Source: Verrucomicrobiota bacterium
GTDB lineage: Bacteria; Verrucomicrobiota; Verrucomicrobiia; Verrucomicrobiales; Akkermansiaceae
DNA length: 64,000 bases
Direction of reading: 5' to 3'
Assembly: GCA_017301995.1 (NCBI GenBank)
Contig: JAFLEH010000004.1
Coordinates: forward strand, 1 to 64,000
Shown piece after piece: positions 49,952 to 58,629 of this stretch. The notes below the pieces were generated by a model. The model was not told the origin of the DNA. It was given only the letters and a program-made list of their open reading frames with translations, and searched no databases. The position numbers were made by a program, and so were the translations under genes. The stretch's first letter is position 1. The number at the start of each line of letters is the position of its first letter.

Positions 49952-50584
49952 ATGAAACGAACCTTACTACTGTTAGTCCCGGTCATCGCCCTCGCCGCCA
50001 CCGGCGCGGATAACGAGCGGAAATCCAAGGAAGAGGCGCTTGGCGCTCTGTGGCAGGAGTCGGTTAGCAAGGAGAGTTCCGGCGAGCACGCGGAGGCCTT
50101 GCGGCTGGCGAGCCAATACCTGAAGGACGGAGGCGATTCCTATCTGGCGACGATGCGTGCGGCATGGCTGAATTACGGCCAGAAGAACTACGACGAGGCT
50201 GCGCGATACTATGCCAATGCGATGCGGATCCAACCCGGCGCGCTGAGCCCCAGACTGGGCCTGTTGACTGTGGCGAAGGACAAGCAGGACCCTCAGGGGG
50301 TGAGCAAGGCCGCGGAACTGGTGCTGGCGCTGGAGCCCTCCAACTACCGTGCGCTGTATGCCGTGGCATCGGCGGCGTTTGAGGCGAAGAGTTACGCCAA
50401 GGCCGGATCGGTTTACCGGCAGATCCTGAAATTCTATCCGGAGGAAATGGACGCGCTGAGCGGCGCGGCGTGGTCGTCGTTCTATCAGGGGCAGAAAATG
50501 GAGGCCCGTTCCGGTTTCCGCCGGCTGGTGAGCGTGAACCCGGACTATCCGTACGCGCGGCAGGGGATCGACGCCTGCAAGTGA
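49952..50584 (+). CDS. Exported TPR-repeat protein
   Basis: 210 residues from ATG 49952, with a signal peptide (MKRTLLLLVPVIALAATGA). TPR helices: RAAWLNYGQKNYDEAARYYANAM, YRALYAVASAAFEAKSYAKA and YPEEMDALSGAAWSSFYQGQ. Probably periplasmic, a scaffold. Its stop is directly adjacent to the PqqD-like ORF, so it is likely the first gene of that operon. Confidence 0.82.
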   Translation: MKRTLLLLVPVIALAATGADNERKSKEEALGALWQESVSKESSGEHAEALRLASQYLKDGGDSYLATMRAAWLNYGQKNYDEAARYYANAMRIQPGALSPRLGLLTVAKDKQDPQGVSKAAELVLALEPSNYRALYAVASAAFEAKSYAKAGSVYRQILKFYPEEMDALSGAAWSSFYQGQKMEARSGFRRLVSVNPDYPYARQGIDACK

Positions 50585-50611
50585 ATGGAACCACCCTATC
50601 CGATTCCGGCC

Positions 50612-50860
50612 ATGAACACCCAATCCACCCGTCTTGACGATCTGATGCTCAACGACCGCGGGTTCGTCTTCGATCCGAACACCGGCGAGAGCTATCAACT
50701 GAGCGCCACCGGACTGCAATGCCTGCGGGCGCTGCAGCGCGGCGCCACCACCGCCGCCGTGCTGGCGGAATTGTTGGAAACGCGCGAGGTGGACGCCTTG
50801 ACCGCCCGCGCCGACCTCGACGCATTCCTCTGGGAACTCAACCAACTCGGCTGGCTATGA
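50612..50860 (+). CDS. PqqD-like protein (RiPP recognition element fold)
   Basis: 82 residues from ATG 50612 (MNTQSTRLDD); ATG 50585, touching the previous stop, would add nine. LMLNDRGFVFDPNTGESYQL then LSATGLQCLRALQRGAT and FLWELNQLGWL follow the PqqD pattern of a small winged-helix that holds a precursor peptide for a modifying enzyme. Its stop overlaps the ATP-grasp start as ATGA, so the two are coupled. No precursor peptide gene was found beside it. It may instead serve as a carrier protein. Confidence 0.75.
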   Translation: MNTQSTRLDDLMLNDRGFVFDPNTGESYQLSATGLQCLRALQRGATTAAVLAELLETREVDALTARADLDAFLWELNQLGWL

Positions 50861-51897
50861 AACCACTTCGCATTGCGGTAAGCGGCATGCACCGCGGAGA
50901 CAACCCCCAGCCCGGCGGATCGATCGTGGCGGACATCCGGCGGGAATGGCCGGACGCGGAGGTCGTCGGGCTGGTTTACAACGCCTACGAAAGCGCGATT
51001 TACGCCGCCGACGGGCCACAGGTTTGCCACACCATGCCCTATCCGACGGCCGGGCTGCCGATCTATCTGGAGCGGCTGGCGGAGGTGCGGGCGGCGACAC
51101 CGTTCGACTGGCTGATCCCGACGCTGGATGCCGAGATCACGATGCTGGCGGGTGCCACCGAGCGGCTTGCCGCGCTGGGAATCCAGGTGAGACTGCCATC
51201 CGCTGGGCTGCTCGCGCGATGTGGCAAGGCCAAGCTGCCCGCGCTGGCGGAATCATGTGGCGTGGAAGTGCCGGAAACGGCGGTGGCGCGCGATCTATCC
51301 GAGGCGATGGAGCACGCCGGGCGGATGGGCTATCCGGTATTTGTGAAAGGCGCGTTCTACGACGCCTCGCTGGCGCGCGACGCGGCGGCGGTGGCGGCCG
51401 CGGGCGGCGCGATCCTGGCCGACTGGGGGCCGCCGCTCATCATCCAGGAGCCGAGCGTGGGCACCGAATTCAACGTGATGGGAATCGGCGATGGCGATGG
51501 GGGTTTGTTAGGATATTGTGCCGTGCGCAAGCTGATCATCAGCGACAAAGGCAAGGGCAACGGTTCGGTGGTGGTCCAGGATCCGCGGTTGGATGAAATC
51601 ACGCGGCGGGTGATCGCCCACACCCGGTGGCCGGGGCCGTTCGAGCTGGAATTCGTCCGAGACGCGCGCGACGACGGTTATCGGCTGATAGAAATCAACC
51701 CGCGGTTTCCGGCGTGGGTCGGGTTTCCGGCGCTTTCGGGCGCGAATTTCTCCGCGGCGGCGGTGGAGTGGATGGTTTCCGGCCGTTGCCGGGAACTGCC
51801 GCTACCCGAGCCGGGAACGTTTTTCCTCCGCCACCAGATCGAAGTCTGCGGGCGGATGGATCAGATCTCCGGGCTGCTGGTGCAGCATGTTGGTTAG
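50857..51897 (+). CDS. ATP-grasp ligase
   Basis: 346 residues from ATG 50857. The N-terminal pre-ATP-grasp domain (RIAVSGMHRGDNPQPGGS) is followed by an ATP-grasp fold: GYPVFVKGAFYDA (Lys for ATP), IIQEPSVGTEFNVMG and the metal site YRLIEINPRFPAW. Such enzymes join a carboxylate to an amine through an acyl phosphate. Overlaps the PqqD-like gene and precedes a PLP decarboxylase by 22 bases. Substrate unknown. Confidence 0.88.
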   Translation: MKPLRIAVSGMHRGDNPQPGGSIVADIRREWPDAEVVGLVYNAYESAIYAADGPQVCHTMPYPTAGLPIYLERLAEVRAATPFDWLIPTLDAEITMLAGATERLAALGIQVRLPSAGLLARCGKAKLPALAESCGVEVPETAVARDLSEAMEHAGRMGYPVFVKGAFYDASLARDAAAVAAAGGAILADWGPPLIIQEPSVGTEFNVMGIGDGDGGLLGYCAVRKLIISDKGKGNGSVVVQDPRLDEITRRVIAHTRWPGPFELEFVRDARDDGYRLIEINPRFPAWVGFPALSGANFSAAAVEWMVSGRCRELPLPEPGTFFLRHQIEVCGRMDQISGLLVQHVG

Positions 51898-51919
51898 AAA
51901 ACTTCTTTAGAACAACCCC

Positions 51920-53407
51920 ATGAGCAAACAACCTTACATCGTGCCGGCGATCCGGCGAGTTTCCCAATCCTCCGCCAACCCGCAACGGCTCGGCCGCACG
52001 CCGGTGATCGACGTGATCGACGGCGTGCCGGTGGCCGGGCTGCTGGCGCGATTCGGCGGTCCGCTGTTCGTGTTTTCCGAAGCGGGCCTGCGGGCGAAAA
52101 TCCGCGATGCCAAACGCGCGTTCGCGGCGGTCTATCCGGATGTCACGTTCGCGTGGTCGTACAAGACGAACTACCTCGACGCCGTGTGCCGGGTTTTCCA
52201 CCAGGAAGGCTCGATGGCCGAGGTGGTTTCTGGTTTCGAATACGAAAAGGCGCGTGCCAACGGCGTGCCGGGTGCCAGGATCATTTTCAACGGCCCCTAC
52301 AAGACCACCGCCGAACTGCGCCGCGCCGTGGACGAAGGCGCGATGATCCAGGTGGACAACCGCGATGAGGTGGTGGCGCTCGCCAGGCTGGCGGCGGAAA
52401 TGGATCGCGACCTCAAAGTGGGCATGCGGGTGCATGTCGATACCGGAACGCACGCGGTGTGGAGCAAGTTCGGCTTCTCGGTGGAGGGCGGCGAGGCGCT
52501 GCGGATGATCCGCTGGATGACCGAAAACACCCGGCTGCGGGTGTGCGGACTGCACTGCCATGTGGGTACCTTCATGCTGGACGCCGGCGCGTATGCCACG
52601 GCGGCGCGCGCGGTGACCGAACTCGCACTCGAAGCGGAGGAGGCCGGATGTCCGCCGGTGTCGTATCTGAACCTGGGCGGCGGATTCGCGTCGCGGGCGC
52701 GGCTGCACGGCCAATACCTGCCTCCGGAGCAGGCGACTCCGTCGTTCGACGACTACGCGAGGGAATTGTCCGGGACGATCAAGGACTGCTGGCCGCAGGG
52801 ACGGACTCTGCCGAAACTCTATCTGGAAACCGGCCGCGCGCTGGTGGACGAGGCGGGCTATTTGTTAGCAAGCGTGGTCGCCGTGAAACAGCGGACGGTC
52901 AAGGATGCCGGGGCGGCGCTGGCGGCCTACGGCAAAGGCGGTGCCGGCGGCGCTTTGGCCGCATACGGCAAGGGCGGGAGCGTGGTCGCCGCGGTCGGCG
53001 GCCGCCGCAACGCGGTGGTGTTGGACGCCGGGATCCAGATCCTCTACACGACCGCGTGGTATCAGCCGTCGATCTATCCGGCGGCCGAGCCGCGGACCGG
53101 CGTGCAGCCGACCACGGTGTATGGTTGCCTGTGCATGAACATCGATGTGATCCGGGAGGAGGCGGCGCTGCCGGACCTGCGGCCGGGGGACGCGGTGGTG
53201 ATCCATCCGGTGGGCGCCTACAACATCACCCAGTCGATGCAGTTCATTTCCTACCGGCCGGCGGTGGTGATGGTGGGTACGGACGGTCATGCGCACCTGA
53301 TCCGGCGGCGCGAAACGCTGGAGGACGTGCGCGGGCCCGAGGTGGTCCCCGGATTTCTATCGGAAATCAACGGAACCGCGGGGGAGGCGCGGGTTGATAG
53401 GCAATGA
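51920..53407 (+). CDS. Fold-type-III PLP-dependent decarboxylase
   Basis: 495 residues. It has the alanine-racemase-type barrel of diaminopimelate/ornithine decarboxylases: PLP Lys in FAWSYKTNYL, GLHCHVGTFM, the phosphate-binding LNLGGGFASR, LYLETGRALVDEAGYLLASV, and the Cys of YGCLCMNIDV near the C-terminus. A Gly/Ala-rich segment near residues 335-355 holds two copies of AAYGKGG, not normal for the family. It could be a lysA-type enzyme, but the context (PqqD, ATP-grasp, M23) suggests a specialised substrate. Confidence 0.87.
   Translation: MSKQPYIVPAIRRVSQSSANPQRLGRTPVIDVIDGVPVAGLLARFGGPLFVFSEAGLRAKIRDAKRAFAAVYPDVTFAWSYKTNYLDAVCRVFHQEGSMAEVVSGFEYEKARANGVPGARIIFNGPYKTTAELRRAVDEGAMIQVDNRDEVVALARLAAEMDRDLKVGMRVHVDTGTHAVWSKFGFSVEGGEALRMIRWMTENTRLRVCGLHCHVGTFMLDAGAYATAARAVTELALEAEEAGCPPVSYLNLGGGFASRARLHGQYLPPEQATPSFDDYARELSGTIKDCWPQGRTLPKLYLETGRALVDEAGYLLASVVAVKQRTVKDAGAALAAYGKGGAGGALAAYGKGGSVVAAVGGRRNAVVLDAGIQILYTTAWYQPSIYPAAEPRTGVQPTTVYGCLCMNIDVIREEAALPDLRPGDAVVIHPVGAYNITQSMQFISYRPAVVMVGTDGHAHLIRRRETLEDVRGPEVVPGFLSEINGTAGEARVDRQ
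52919..52977. repeat. Internal coding duplication in the decarboxylase gene
   Basis: Two imperfect copies of a ~33-base unit each encode ALAAYGKGG. The duplication adds a flexible Gly/Ala loop. Confidence 0.65.
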
Positions 53408-55590
53408 TCCCGCTGCGCCAGGAAATCCATGTGGGCGAGGCCGGTCCCGGCTTCTGGCGGGTGCTGTGCGAGGCTGTGCCGCGGACTTATGCGATCGTGT
53501 TTTACTCGGCGGACGCCCGATTCGGTTGGGCGATGCTGGCGTTGAGCCTGTGTCTTCCGTGGGTGGCGCTGGCCGGTGTGGCTGGCGTGGCGCTGGCCTT
53601 GGCAGCGGGCTGGTGGATCGGCGTGGACCGCGGCTGGCTGCGTGGAGGCTTCGCGTTGTTCAACCCGTTGCTGGCCTGCAGCGCCGTGGTTCTAACCGGA
53701 CGGGCGTCCGGATGGGACACCGGTGTGATCGTGCTGCTGTGGGCGGCTGCGGCGCTGCTGACCCTGGCGCTCACGGTCGGTCTGCAAGGTTGGGTGGCGT
53801 CGCGGATCGGGCTATCGGTGCAAAGCGTGCCGGCGGTGATCGTGGTGGCCCTGTTGGGATGGTGCGGCGGAGTTTCGGGAGGGCAGGGGCTGCCGGTGGC
53901 GGAGGTGTATTTGTTAGGCGGTTCGCTGGAAGCGCTTCCGGATTGCCTGAGGGCGTTTTTCACCGCATTCGGAGCGATGGTTTTCCAACCGAATGAAACG
54001 GTCGGGCTGTTGGTTTATGCGGCGCTGGTGTTGAGTTCGCCGTTGGGCGCTCTAACCGCCACGGTGGGGTTTGCCGCCGGAGCGGCGGTGATGCACGTGC
54101 TGGGTTGGCCGGTCACCGCGCTGGGAACGGCCTGGTGCGGATTCAATTTCCTGCTGGCGGGCGTGGCGCTGGGCGCGGGCTATCAGGTTCCTAACAGAAC
54201 AAGCCTGGTGCTGGCCGCGTTCGGTGGCGGGTTGGTGGCGGTGGCGGCGGTGGGTCTATCCGTCGGGATGGGGCGGCTGGGGCTGGCGCCCGGCGCGCTG
54301 CCCTACAATCTGGTGGTGCTTGGCGTGATGGCCGGCCTGCGCTGGCTTCCGCAGCCGCGAGGTCTTCTGCGGTCGCCGTGGACCACCCTGCAACCCGAGG
54401 CCACGGCGCGGGTGATGCAGATCAACGCGCTGCGGTTTACGGATTTCCTCAAACCCGCGCTGTTTCTGCCGTGGACCGGCACGCGGGTGGTGACGCAGGG
54501 TTTCGACGGTGATCTAACACACCGCGGCGCGTGGCGGCACGGGCTGGATTTCGAGGCACCCGGCGGCGCGGGATCATGGGACGCGGGCAGCGGAGACCTC
54601 CGGGAGTTCGCGGTGTTCGGGACACCGGTTTATTCCCCGGTGGATGGCACGGTGGTTGCTGTGGAAAACACGGTCGCCGACAACCCCGTGGGCACCAACA
54701 ACCCGGAGCAAAACTGGGGAAACCATGTGATCGTCCGGAGCGATCTCGGCCACCACGTGATGCTGGCGCATTTCCAACAAGGCAGCATCGTGGTGGCGGC
54801 GCACCAGCGGGTGGCCGCGGGAATGCTGTTAGGAAGCTGCGGAAATTCCGGTCGCTCGCCGGTGCCGCACCTGCACGTGCACGTTCAGGAAAGCGCGTTT
54901 CGCGGCGCGGCGACCCTGCCTTTCGTGCTCAAACATTTCATCGCGCCCGACCCGGAAACCGGCCGTGAGCACTACCACCTCTCCGGCGTACCCGGCCAGG
55001 GCGCGCTGTTGCGTCCCACCCGGCCGGCGGCGGAAATCCATGCCGGAATCGCGGGGTGGCTGCCGGGGGAAATGGTCTTCGTCGATGACCACGGTCGCGA
55101 GGAGCGGGTGGTGTTGGATTTCGACGAGTCCGGACGTTTCCGCTTCGAGTCACCGCGCCGCATGGAACGGCTCACCGCGTTTCTCGCCGAGGGCGTGCTT
55201 TATGCCTCGCCATTCACCGGTCGGGCCGGTGGGGCGCTGGGGTGGCTGGGCATCCTGCTGGCCCGCATCCCCTGTATGGACGAACCCGGCGTGGCGTGGG
55301 ACGACAAGGTGGCCGCCGCGCCGTTTTTCGGGCCGGCCAGGCGCGCGTTACACGACCTCTGCGACCCCTTTGCGGGGCCGGAAGTCCTTCATTATGAATA
55401 CACTCTGCTAGAACGTGATGGCGATACCGCGGAAATCGTGGCGCGTCTGGCACCCGGCGATCTCAAACGCGCCCAGGCCGCCCCCCGGCTGATCCGGGGC
55501 AAACTGCGCGGACGCGAGGGCGTGGTCGAGGTCAGCGGGGAAACCTGCGGTGGAGAAAAATTCCGGATTTCTCGCGAAATCGGAAAATAA
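53404..55590 (+). CDS. Urea-transporter-like membrane domain fused to an M23 peptidase
   Basis: 728 residues; ATG overlaps the decarboxylase stop as ATGA. Residues ~30-315 contain ten or so hydrophobic segments with urea-transporter features (GGFALFNPLLACSAVVL; GTAWCGFNFLLAGVALG, a repeated pore-type motif; QPNETVGLLVYAALVL). Residues ~360-510 form an M23/LytM-type zinc peptidase: HGLDFEAP (HxxxD), PVYSPVDGTVVAV and HLHVHV (HxH). The ~220-residue C-terminus is unassigned. All metal ligands are present. M23 enzymes cut peptidoglycan peptides, so the fusion links a small-solute channel to wall-peptide cleavage. Confidence 0.85.
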   Translation: MIPLRQEIHVGEAGPGFWRVLCEAVPRTYAIVFYSADARFGWAMLALSLCLPWVALAGVAGVALALAAGWWIGVDRGWLRGGFALFNPLLACSAVVLTGRASGWDTGVIVLLWAAAALLTLALTVGLQGWVASRIGLSVQSVPAVIVVALLGWCGGVSGGQGLPVAEVYLLGGSLEALPDCLRAFFTAFGAMVFQPNETVGLLVYAALVLSSPLGALTATVGFAAGAAVMHVLGWPVTALGTAWCGFNFLLAGVALGAGYQVPNRTSLVLAAFGGGLVAVAAVGLSVGMGRLGLAPGALPYNLVVLGVMAGLRWLPQPRGLLRSPWTTLQPEATARVMQINALRFTDFLKPALFLPWTGTRVVTQGFDGDLTHRGAWRHGLDFEAPGGAGSWDAGSGDLREFAVFGTPVYSPVDGTVVAVENTVADNPVGTNNPEQNWGNHVIVRSDLGHHVMLAHFQQGSIVVAAHQRVAAGMLLGSCGNSGRSPVPHLHVHVQESAFRGAATLPFVLKHFIAPDPETGREHYHLSGVPGQGALLRPTRPAAEIHAGIAGWLPGEMVFVDDHGREERVVLDFDESGRFRFESPRRMERLTAFLAEGVLYASPFTGRAGGALGWLGILLARIPCMDEPGVAWDDKVAAAPFFGPARRALHDLCDPFAGPEVLHYEYTLLERDGDTAEIVARLAPGDLKRAQAAPRLIRGKLRGREGVVEVSGETCGGEKFRISREIGK

Positions 55591-56538: not shown

Positions 56539-56656
56539 CGGGATGGTTGTGTTAGGTTGAGGTTGTGGGAATTTCGTGGGCACCTCCGAAGATTGCCACA
56601 ATCCGCCCGATTTTTATCGAGTTTTCCGGAATTCCGGTGCAGGCTGCGGGCCGCCC

Positions 56657-57838
56657 ATGTATGTGATTTCCCTAGCAGCGTTGAAGCGCAACACCTCCGT
56701 TCTGCGGGAGGTGAAGGAGGCCGCCGGTTGCCGATTGGTGCTGGCGCTGAAGGGATTTTCCTGTTGGAGGACGTTTCCGGCAATCCGCGACGATTTGGAC
56801 GGCTGCTGTGCCTCGGGGCTGTGGGAGGCGATGCTGGCTCGGAAACACTTCGGGAAACAGGTCATCACCTATTCCCCGGCTTACGACGCGGCCGATGTCG
56901 CGGCGCTGTGTGAGTTCACCCATCATCTCGATTTCAACTCGCTTTCGCAGTGGTTCCGGTTCCGGGAATCGGTGATGGCGCATCCGCGTTTCCTCAACGG
57001 CGAACTGCATTGTGGGTTGCGGATCAATCCCCAGCATTCCACCGGCCACACGCCCCTCTACGATCCCTGCGTGGCCGGATCGCGGCTGGGCGTCACGGCG
57101 GACCAGTTGGCCGGAGCGGATCTAACCGGCATCTCCGGCCTGCATATTCATACGCTTTGCGAGCAGAATTCCGACGACCTCGAAACCACCCTCGCCGCCG
57201 TGGACGAGCGCTTCGGCGGCCTGCTGCGGTCCGGCCAAATCCGCTATCTGAACATGGGAGGCGGCCATTGGATCACCAAGCCGTTCTACGACCGTGACCG
57301 TTTGGTTAGGTTGGTCCGTGAAACCGCTTCGCGCTATGGTGTGGAAGTGTGGCTGGAGCCCGGCGAGGCGGTGGCGATTCATACCGGCGTGCTGCGCGCG
57401 GAAGTGATGGACGTGTTCGAATCCGCGGGCCACCGGCTGGCGATCCTGAGTGTTTCCGCCACGGCGCACATGCCGGATGTGTTGGAAATGCCCTATCGGC
57501 CGGATGTTTTCCTGGTGGATTCCGAGCCAGGCGACGGGCGGCCGGCGGTGGTGCTGGAAGGCGAGCACTATCATCCCGCGACGGAGTCCGGCGAATGGAT
57601 CTATCGGTTGGGCGGACCGACCTGTCTGGCGGGGGATGTGGTCGGCGACTTCGCGTTTCCGCGTCCGCTGTTGGTCGGGGATGTGCTGGTGTTTGATGAC
57701 ATGGCCCATTACACCATGGTGAAAACCACGATGTTCAACGGGGTGAAGCATCCGCCGGTGGCGCTCCAGCATCCGGACGGAACGCTGGAGATCGTCCGGG
57801 AGTTCGGTTTCGGGGATTTCGAAAACCGACTTGCGTGA
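56657..57838 (+). CDS. nspC: Carboxynorspermidine decarboxylase
   Basis: 393 residues from ATG 56657 (MYVISLAALKRNT); GTG 56576 would add 27. NspC removes CO2 from carboxy(nor)spermidine, the last step of the alternative spermidine route. Visible: PLP Lys in LVLALKGFSCW, GLHIHTLCEQN, YLNMGGGHWIT, WLEPGEAV, and the C-terminal GPTCLAGDVVGDF and FDDMAHYTMVKTTMFNG motifs. The partner carboxyspermidine dehydrogenase is not in the window. Second fold-III decarboxylase in this stretch. Confidence 0.9.
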   Translation: MYVISLAALKRNTSVLREVKEAAGCRLVLALKGFSCWRTFPAIRDDLDGCCASGLWEAMLARKHFGKQVITYSPAYDAADVAALCEFTHHLDFNSLSQWFRFRESVMAHPRFLNGELHCGLRINPQHSTGHTPLYDPCVAGSRLGVTADQLAGADLTGISGLHIHTLCEQNSDDLETTLAAVDERFGGLLRSGQIRYLNMGGGHWITKPFYDRDRLVRLVRETASRYGVEVWLEPGEAVAIHTGVLRAEVMDVFESAGHRLAILSVSATAHMPDVLEMPYRPDVFLVDSEPGDGRPAVVLEGEHYHPATESGEWIYRLGGPTCLAGDVVGDFAFPRPLLVGDVLVFDDMAHYTMVKTTMFNGVKHPPVALQHPDGTLEIVREFGFGDFENRLA

Positions 57839-57937: not shown

Positions 57938-58360
57938 TTAGGAATTGGTGGTGAGCCAGCGATCCGGCAACACCGCGCCGGCACGGCGGACGTGTTCCTT
58001 ATCCCACGAAACGAGTTGACAGCCGAGCATCTCCGCCGTTGCGGCATAGATGGCATCGGCACCCCTGAGAAATCCGGTGGTTCCGGTAGAGAGAGCGTTG
58101 GCAAGCAGCGCGGCGCTCATCGGGTGCTCTTTGGCACCGGCGGTCGAGAGCAGAAGATTGGCCAGACGGAGACCTTCTGCGGAATCCCTGAGCCTACGGG
58201 CCAGGGCACATGCCACTTCAACCCGTGCGATCGCCGGCACATGGAGGGTGATCCGATGGACAAGCGCATGCGTCAGAAAGGCCCTGCTCGCGGTGCAGAA
58301 CGGATCGGTGGGGTCTTGGGCCGCAACCCAAACACTGGCGTCCACAGCTAACGCACTCAT
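57938..58360 (-). CDS. vapC: PIN-domain toxin
   Basis: 140 residues. Metal-binding acids of the PIN fold are visible: Asp in LAVDASVWVAA, Glu in IARVEVACAL, Asp in RGADAIYAATAE and SWDKEHVRR. VapC toxins cleave tRNA or rRNA. Starts within the vapB stop (ATGA overlap). Confidence 0.92.
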   Translation of the reverse strand: MSALAVDASVWVAAQDPTDPFCTASRAFLTHALVHRITLHVPAIARVEVACALARRLRDSAEGLRLANLLLSTAGAKEHPMSAALLANALSTGTTGFLRGADAIYAATAEMLGCQLVSWDKEHVRRAGAVLPDRWLTTNS

Positions 58361-58629
58361 GGTCTTTCAAGCCGGTTGCGAGCCTGGCCGAGATGACGCC
58401 GGGCGGCGGGACCGGGTTGGGCCGCATGGACCAGCCGGTCGGCCTCCGCAAAGCAGGCTGCCAGTTGCTTGATCGGCGTAGTCGGGCCGGAAACCTGGGT
58501 GGCCGCCGCAGCTTGCAGGGACAAACGCAACCCCTCGGTCACCAGGTCCTTCATTTTGCGACCGGTCAGCGAAGCGTAGGCCTTCGCCTCGCGATATAGG
58601 GTGTCGTCAATCTCAAGTGTCGTCTTCAC
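58357..58629 (-). CDS. vapB: VapB-type antitoxin
   Basis: 90 residues. The N-terminus is ribbon-helix-helix-like (MKTTLEIDDTLYREAKAYAS, then TGRKMKDLVTEGLRLSL), which binds DNA and represses the operon. The C-terminal tail should neutralise VapC. Coupled to vapC. Confidence 0.88.
   Translation of the reverse strand: MKTTLEIDDTLYREAKAYASLTGRKMKDLVTEGLRLSLQAAAATQVSGPTTPIKQLAACFAEADRLVHAAQPGPAARRHLGQARNRLERP

Follow-up and report, generated by a model that had tools for sequence, protein, structure and literature searches.

A conserved five-gene set with a PqqD-like protein, an ATP-grasp ligase, a PLP decarboxylase and a urea-transporter/M23 fusion: a possible biosynthesis-and-transport operon

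Introduction

What would a bacterium do with a urea-transporter fold, an M23 peptidase, a ligase and a decarboxylase encoded side by side? The question is raised by a contig of a Verrucomicrobiota bacterium (Akkermansiaceae), of which we analysed a stretch of 64,000 nucleotides (hereafter the window). Positions 49952-55590 hold five plus-strand ORFs lying head to tail, which encode a TPR protein, a PqqD-like protein, an ATP-grasp ligase, a fold-III PLP decarboxylase (DC) and a fusion of a urea-transporter (UT) domain with an M23 domain. A preliminary description of this DNA had read the five as one functional unit and as a pathway in which a substrate held by the PqqD-like protein is ligated, decarboxylated, and then transported or used in wall cleavage by the fusion. 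The parts belong to known families, and the literature searched, outside which lie most subscription journals, gave no description of the gene set, of the fusion or of the DC subfamily. Nor is the set described in surveys of RREs (PMC12710340), of Bacteroidales RiPPs (PMC10352776) or of graspetides (PMC8939145). Here, we ask by computational comparison how firmly these genes belong together and what they may do.

Results

Layout and identity of the five genes

The first gene encodes the TPR protein (49952-50584, + strand; Pfam TPR_16, 49.5 bits), and the second the PqqD/RRE-like protein of 82 aa (50612-50860, +; Pfam PqqD PF05402, 40.8 bits against a gathering score of 23.4). The longest ORF of the latter starts at 50585, directly after the TPR gene (0 bp), but a start at 50612, which leaves 27 bp, is likelier because the relatives begin there. 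An ATGA overlap (50857-50860) leads into the ATP-grasp carboxylate-amine ligase (346 aa, 50857-51897, +; Pfam ATPgrasp_Ter, model fold and conserved residues), and a gap of 22 bp separates this from the DC, a 495-aa enzyme of the alanine-racemase fold (51920-53407, +; Pfam Orn_Arg_deC_N and Orn_DAP_Arg_deC). A second ATGA overlap (53404-53407) joins the DC to the UT/M23 fusion (53404-55590, +; Pfam UT and Peptidase_M23), in which the UT domain (residues 1-345, 53404-54438) is followed by a LytM-type M23 metallopeptidase domain that is predicted to be cytoplasmic (residues 350-510, 54451-54933) and by a conserved, beta-rich C-terminal region (residues 511-728, 54934-55590), all on the + strand. 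Pfam agrees with the family assignment of each gene, and the five ORFs and their junctions, described earlier as ATGA overlaps or gaps of 0-22 bases, are confirmed.

Conservation and distribution of the gene set

A contig scan with the single UT/M23 protein as query gave no matches, and an alignment of the DC served as query instead. Searching GTDB genomes with this alignment alone yielded at least 557 confirmed relatives, of which the best 80 loci, selected by DC similarity only, were analysed. Among these best 80 of at least 557 loci, the ATP-grasp and UT/M23 genes lie beside the DC in 79, the PqqD gene is present in 77 and a TPR gene lies within 8 kb in 71; the missing members are mostly at contig ends. 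The order PqqD-ATP-grasp-DC-UT/M23-TPR is found at 59 of the 80 loci and a TPR-first order at 10, while 10 more miss one end gene and one, in a member of the Planctomycetaceae (L052), is a lone DC. TPR is a conserved first or last gene, and at none of the 80 loci is any of the five genes fused to another. The hosts belong to Verrucomicrobiota, Planctomycetota, Bacteroidota and Hydrogenedentota.

Closer to the window, 10 loci in its genus and order carry all five genes complete, either as TPR-PqqD-ATP-grasp-DC-UT/M23 or with TPR shifted to the end (family f4), and at two further loci (G012, G028) a contig end truncates the set. In a survey of 289 Verrucomicrobiota genomes, the seven that have the DC (E below 1e-60) are also the seven that have the full-length fusion (E below 1e-80), and eight more genomes hold a separate M23 relative only. 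Conservation of the set across the genus, the order and other phyla is far beyond chance, which upholds the preliminary description's view of one functional unit; the genes are not scattered in relatives, the lone DC of L052 aside. The set is patchy among genomes and thus accessory. A tree of the DC keeps the phyla mostly apart, which suggests that the set is old; one bin labelled 'Melainabacteria' falls within Bacteroidota, perhaps because its contig was mis-binned. Spread by plasmids was also considered, and the plasmid collection gave no match. In one relative (G035, locus L036) the set has apparently been lost: all that is left is 74 aa of the UT/M23 C-terminus (C102, 9674-9898) beside an LbH gene, and the other operon genes are absent.

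Neighbouring genes

The window's TPR protein begins with a signal-like sequence, MKRTLLLLVPVIALAA, and is predicted to be periplasmic; by a crude pattern applied to uncurated starts, 46 of 88 separate TPR proteins have such a beginning. At 56 Bacteroidota loci, an outer-membrane TPR/beta-barrel-like gene (the barrel being judged from sequence) lies between UT/M23 and TPR. In Verrucomicrobiaceae and at locus L043, the operon extends with an AMP-binding ligase and a second UT protein, described below.

Regulators upstream of the set vary, and include AraC-type, LytTR two-component and ECF sigma types, the last with a Metal_resist protein. At L055, L057, L058, L070, L078 and L080, an ECF sigma factor, an anti-sigma-like ORF and the Metal_resist protein precede PqqD; in other Bacteroidota, the N-terminal part of the AraC-type regulator resembles an HMA domain. 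Insertions are also seen: in a Cryomorphaceae bin, a multicopper-oxidase-like gene separates PqqD from ATP-grasp (L109:5213-6916), and elsewhere a sensor kinase and an aminotransferase-like gene stand between DC and UT/M23 (L098:9531-12468).

Two genes downstream of the set were considered as members and rejected. A carboxynorspermidine decarboxylase gene, nspC (56576-57838, about 1 kb downstream; above its curated cut-off), lies beside the set in none of the relatives examined, and an LbH acyltransferase gene adjoins it only in part of the genus and is kept in the operon-less G035. Further on, at 57938-58629 on the minus strand, are overlapping small genes resembling a PIN-domain toxin and its antitoxin.

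The ATP-grasp ligase

The ligase only just passes the Pfam cut-off (29.3 against 29.1 bits), and such marginal family scores do not identify a substrate. In an AlphaFold2 model built on a 63-sequence alignment (pLDDT 91.8), the best fold match is the CPS-like protein 2pn1 (Z 29.2), followed by biotin carboxylases, purine ATP-grasps, the amino-acid ligases RizA and YwfE, and PylC. The ATP-grasp fold and its Mg/ATP-binding residues are present, with K124, K164, E265, E279 and N281 conserved.

The decarboxylase

The residues of a fold-III PLP decarboxylase are intact in the DC, in that the PLP lysine (K82), the stacking histidine (H214) and the catalytic cysteine (C405, in a CMNID motif) occur in 88 of 88 homologues. 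Equally invariant is M406, adjoining the catalytic cysteine, where DAP decarboxylase (DAPDC) has an acidic residue. The enzyme reaches 228 bits against the LysA equivalog TIGR01048, below the cut-off of 297.9 (a Mucilaginibacter homologue reaches 221.6), and 196.2 bits against the FslC model NF041039 of NCBIfam, below the cut-off of 500. A canonical LysA with a CESGD motif is encoded on another contig of the same genome (474.4 bits against TIGR01048).

The nearest solved relative is the N-citrylornithine decarboxylase FigC (7kh2, 170 bits), ahead of the best DAPDC (140). FigC has been grouped with SbnH, AcsE, MccE and BtrK, which take part in making siderophores and antibiotics and use as substrates amino acids that already carry another group; MccE acts on a peptide product of ribosomal origin, and in FigC, too, the Asp adjoining the catalytic cysteine is replaced by Met (PMC7857480). 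In a sequence alignment, the citrate contacts H357, R387 and N389 of FigC correspond to I408, Q438 and M440 of the DC, and these are held by Ile in 88, Gln in 88 and Met in 87 of the 88 homologues. From M406 and these three residues it may therefore be argued that the distal group of the substrate is neither DAP nor citrate. On its sequence, the DC is a separate subfamily related to FigC and DAPDC, and we infer that its substrate is a ligated amino acid delivered by the neighbouring ATP-grasp enzyme. Its pocket residues, the missed cut-offs and the separate LysA rule against a lysine or polyamine role, the assignment that would have spoken against the preliminary description. Residues 334-353 (52919-52978) form a loop with a doubled LAAYGKGG motif, which is shared or varied within the genus and absent in Bacteroidota.

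The UT/M23 fusion and its topology

UT proteins are passive pores that normally pass urea and small amides. The UT domain of the fusion (98.3 bits in Pfam; model pLDDT 90.7) has the whole urea-transporter fold, with a Z of 35.4 (about 35 to each of dvUT, UT-A and UT-B). The filter of dvUT is formed by E187, T130 and T294 (PMC4357013). Mapped by alignment onto 82 fusion homologues, this filter is altered: E187 is replaced by Ala, Thr or Ser and T130 by Ser, and at the T294 position most homologues have Ser, Ala or Pro. The M23 domain (Pfam 49.5 bits) matches EnpA (Z 14.9) and LytM (Z 14.7), and its metal ligands H373, D382 and H491 and catalytic H456 and H489 are intact in 82 of 82 homologues; the structure comparison barely covers residues 529-728.

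On which side of the membrane does the peptidase lie? In the model, M23 follows UT without an extra TM helix between them. The linker after the last UT helix carries a net positive charge in 72 of the 82 homologues and a negative charge in none, and the UT central loop is net negative in 68. Cysteine makes up 1.29% of the M23 and C-terminal part, versus 0.76 and 0.93% of the cytoplasmic enzymes of the set; the values for TPR and outer-membrane proteins are 0.33 and 0.32%. A second UT protein, found in Verrucomicrobiaceae and a planctomycete, bears TPR repeats in the central loop, between its two UT halves (L043:9929-11374, beside the AMP-binding ligase; also at L044 and L046-L050), and separate TPR proteins, the window's included, have the signal-like start noted above. 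Because of these charge biases, the cysteine content and the UT-TPR protein, which are all statistical or comparative indications, a cytoplasmic M23 domain is strongly suggested. Cleavage of the wall by the fusion, as first envisaged, sits poorly with this topology.

The PqqD-like protein and the search for a precursor

The PqqD-like protein is the only PqqD match in its genome. It passes the cut-off of TIGR04353 (HPr-rel-A PqqD; 37.9 against 35), and three matching relatives fall below it; a search of the same genome for the HprK-related kinase A gave no match, with the control likewise silent. The C-terminus varies among homologues and the conserved positions look structural, and the protein is therefore unlikely to be a LysW-like carrier, contrary to the suggestion that it might itself be the carrier.

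That no standard RiPP precursor accompanies the genes was borne out by a search for small conserved ORFs: around 90 loci, within about 2 kb on each side, we found no conserved precursor peptide gene. Antisense and overlap artefacts apart, PqqD alone is widely recurrent among the 1212 small ORFs in these regions; an anti-sigma-like small ORF recurs in 7 of the 90 loci.

Discussion

We tentatively propose, with confidence somewhat short of even, that the set is a conserved biosynthesis-and-transport operon in which a small amine-ended derivative of an amino acid or peptide is ligated, decarboxylated, trimmed and moved through the membrane. The ATP-grasp enzyme, acting in the cytoplasm, would join an amino acid, via its side chain, to an acceptor by an amide (or ester) bond, with the PqqD-like protein perhaps serving as its recognition adaptor. 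The DC would then strip the alpha-carboxyl group from the ligated amino acid to leave an amine-ended compound, an order that we infer by analogy with FigC, BtrK and MccE. The UT domain would be the membrane pore for the small product, presumably for export rather than import, and the M23 domain on its cytoplasmic side would make a proteolytic cut before or during passage. From there the TPR protein could take the product across the periplasm, and in Bacteroidota the TPR/outer-membrane barrel could take it across the outer membrane. Of the pathway drawn in the preliminary description, the single unit, the placing of the enzymes outside lysine and polyamine pathways and the ligation-decarboxylation order are retained, the last in keeping with the action of FigC, the nearest characterised relative, on a ligated amino acid; wall cleavage and a covalent carrier role for PqqD are not. 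We may be looking at an undescribed natural-product or cofactor system of at least four phyla, in which a UT-type pore with a cytoplasmic M23 domain finishes a ligated, decarboxylated compound on its way out, a possibility that we consider real but would not yet rely on.

The same genes could run in the opposite direction, with an amide- or peptide-like nutrient entering through the outer-membrane barrel and the UT pore, being cut by the cytoplasmic M23 domain and having its pieces converted by the ATP-grasp enzyme and the DC. The customary cargo of UT proteins, a predicted cytoplasmic peptidase tethered to a pore, the outer-membrane barrel with a periplasmic TPR protein, and the sensor-type regulators upstream in Bacteroidota would all suit import. 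An ATP-consuming ligase with an RRE-type adaptor suits synthesis better, however, and further catabolic gene families do not recur in the neighbourhood, and we regard uptake and breakdown as unlikely. Rather improbable, in our judgement, is the maturation of a RiPP whose precursor is encoded elsewhere, in which PqqD would be a discrete RRE bringing a leader to the ATP-grasp enzyme and the DC, M23 would cut the leader and UT would export the core. Its appeal lies in the PqqD fold, in an M23 active site predicted on the cytoplasmic side, where a leader peptidase is needed, and in the ribosomal-peptide substrate of the DC relative MccE (PMC7857480), but PqqD is the one conserved small ORF within about 2 kb at 90 loci and a peptide would be a tight fit for a UT pore.

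Modification of the cell wall, with M23 cutting peptidoglycan cross-links and the ATP-grasp enzyme and DC acting on muropeptides or DAP, would make use of the intact M23 residues, a fold near LytM and ShyA, and the kinship of the DC with DAP decarboxylase. The predicted cytoplasmic position of M23 (charge bias, cysteine content and the UT-TPR protein), the Met in place of the acidic residue of DAPDC and the patchy, accessory distribution of the set speak against this, and we think it quite improbable. That the set is an established lysine or polyamine pathway placed next to transport genes by chance can practically be set aside, since nspC about 1 kb downstream in the window and the Pfam superfamily of the DC are outweighed by the canonical LysA elsewhere in the genome (474 bits, CESGD), the sub-cut-off LysA score (228 versus 297.9) and differing pocket residues of the DC, and the lack of conservation of nspC beside the set.

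Returning to the proposed biosynthesis-and-transport operon, the set predicts a urea-channel fold that serves something other than urea, an M23 peptidase at work inside the cell and a new decarboxylase specificity. The DC subfamily is encoded by hundreds of genomes, mostly of Bacteroidota, and those sampled share one fixed gene set; the named isolates Chthoniobacter flavus and Mucilaginibacter gossypiicola make the system testable.

Comparison with known systems

Like the discrete RREs of RiPP clusters, the PqqD-like protein is small, free-standing and built on the PqqD Pfam domain, but a precursor peptide, a radical SAM enzyme or a lasso enzyme is not seen beside it. In its complete 10-helix fold, the fusion matches the urea transporters dvUT, UT-A and UT-B (Z 35 across some 310 residues), and it differs from them in its altered filter, the fused M23 domain and the biosynthetic enzymes alongside. 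With the M23/LytM peptidases LytM, EnpA and ShyA it has in common the fold (Z 14.9) and the metal and catalytic residues; its M23 domain, however, sits on a polytopic pore and is predicted to be cytoplasmic, and its first metal His precedes the Asp by nine residues (H373, D382).

For the enzymes, the side-chain module BtrJ/BtrK/BtrI of butirosin offers a parallel, as it too combines an ATP-grasp ligase, BtrJ, with a DAPDC-related decarboxylase. PqqD, UT/M23 and TPR are without counterpart there, and in place of an acyl carrier protein, which is not seen here, the sole conserved small ORF is PqqD. FigC and FslC differ in that their partner ligase is an NIS synthetase rather than an ATP-grasp enzyme, that the citrate-reading positions H357, R387 and N389 hold I, Q and M in the DC, and that the DC misses the FslC cut-off (196 versus 500 bits). 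Yet it is with FigC, its nearest solved relative, that the DC shares the Met beside the catalytic cysteine and, if our reading is right, decarboxylation after ligation.
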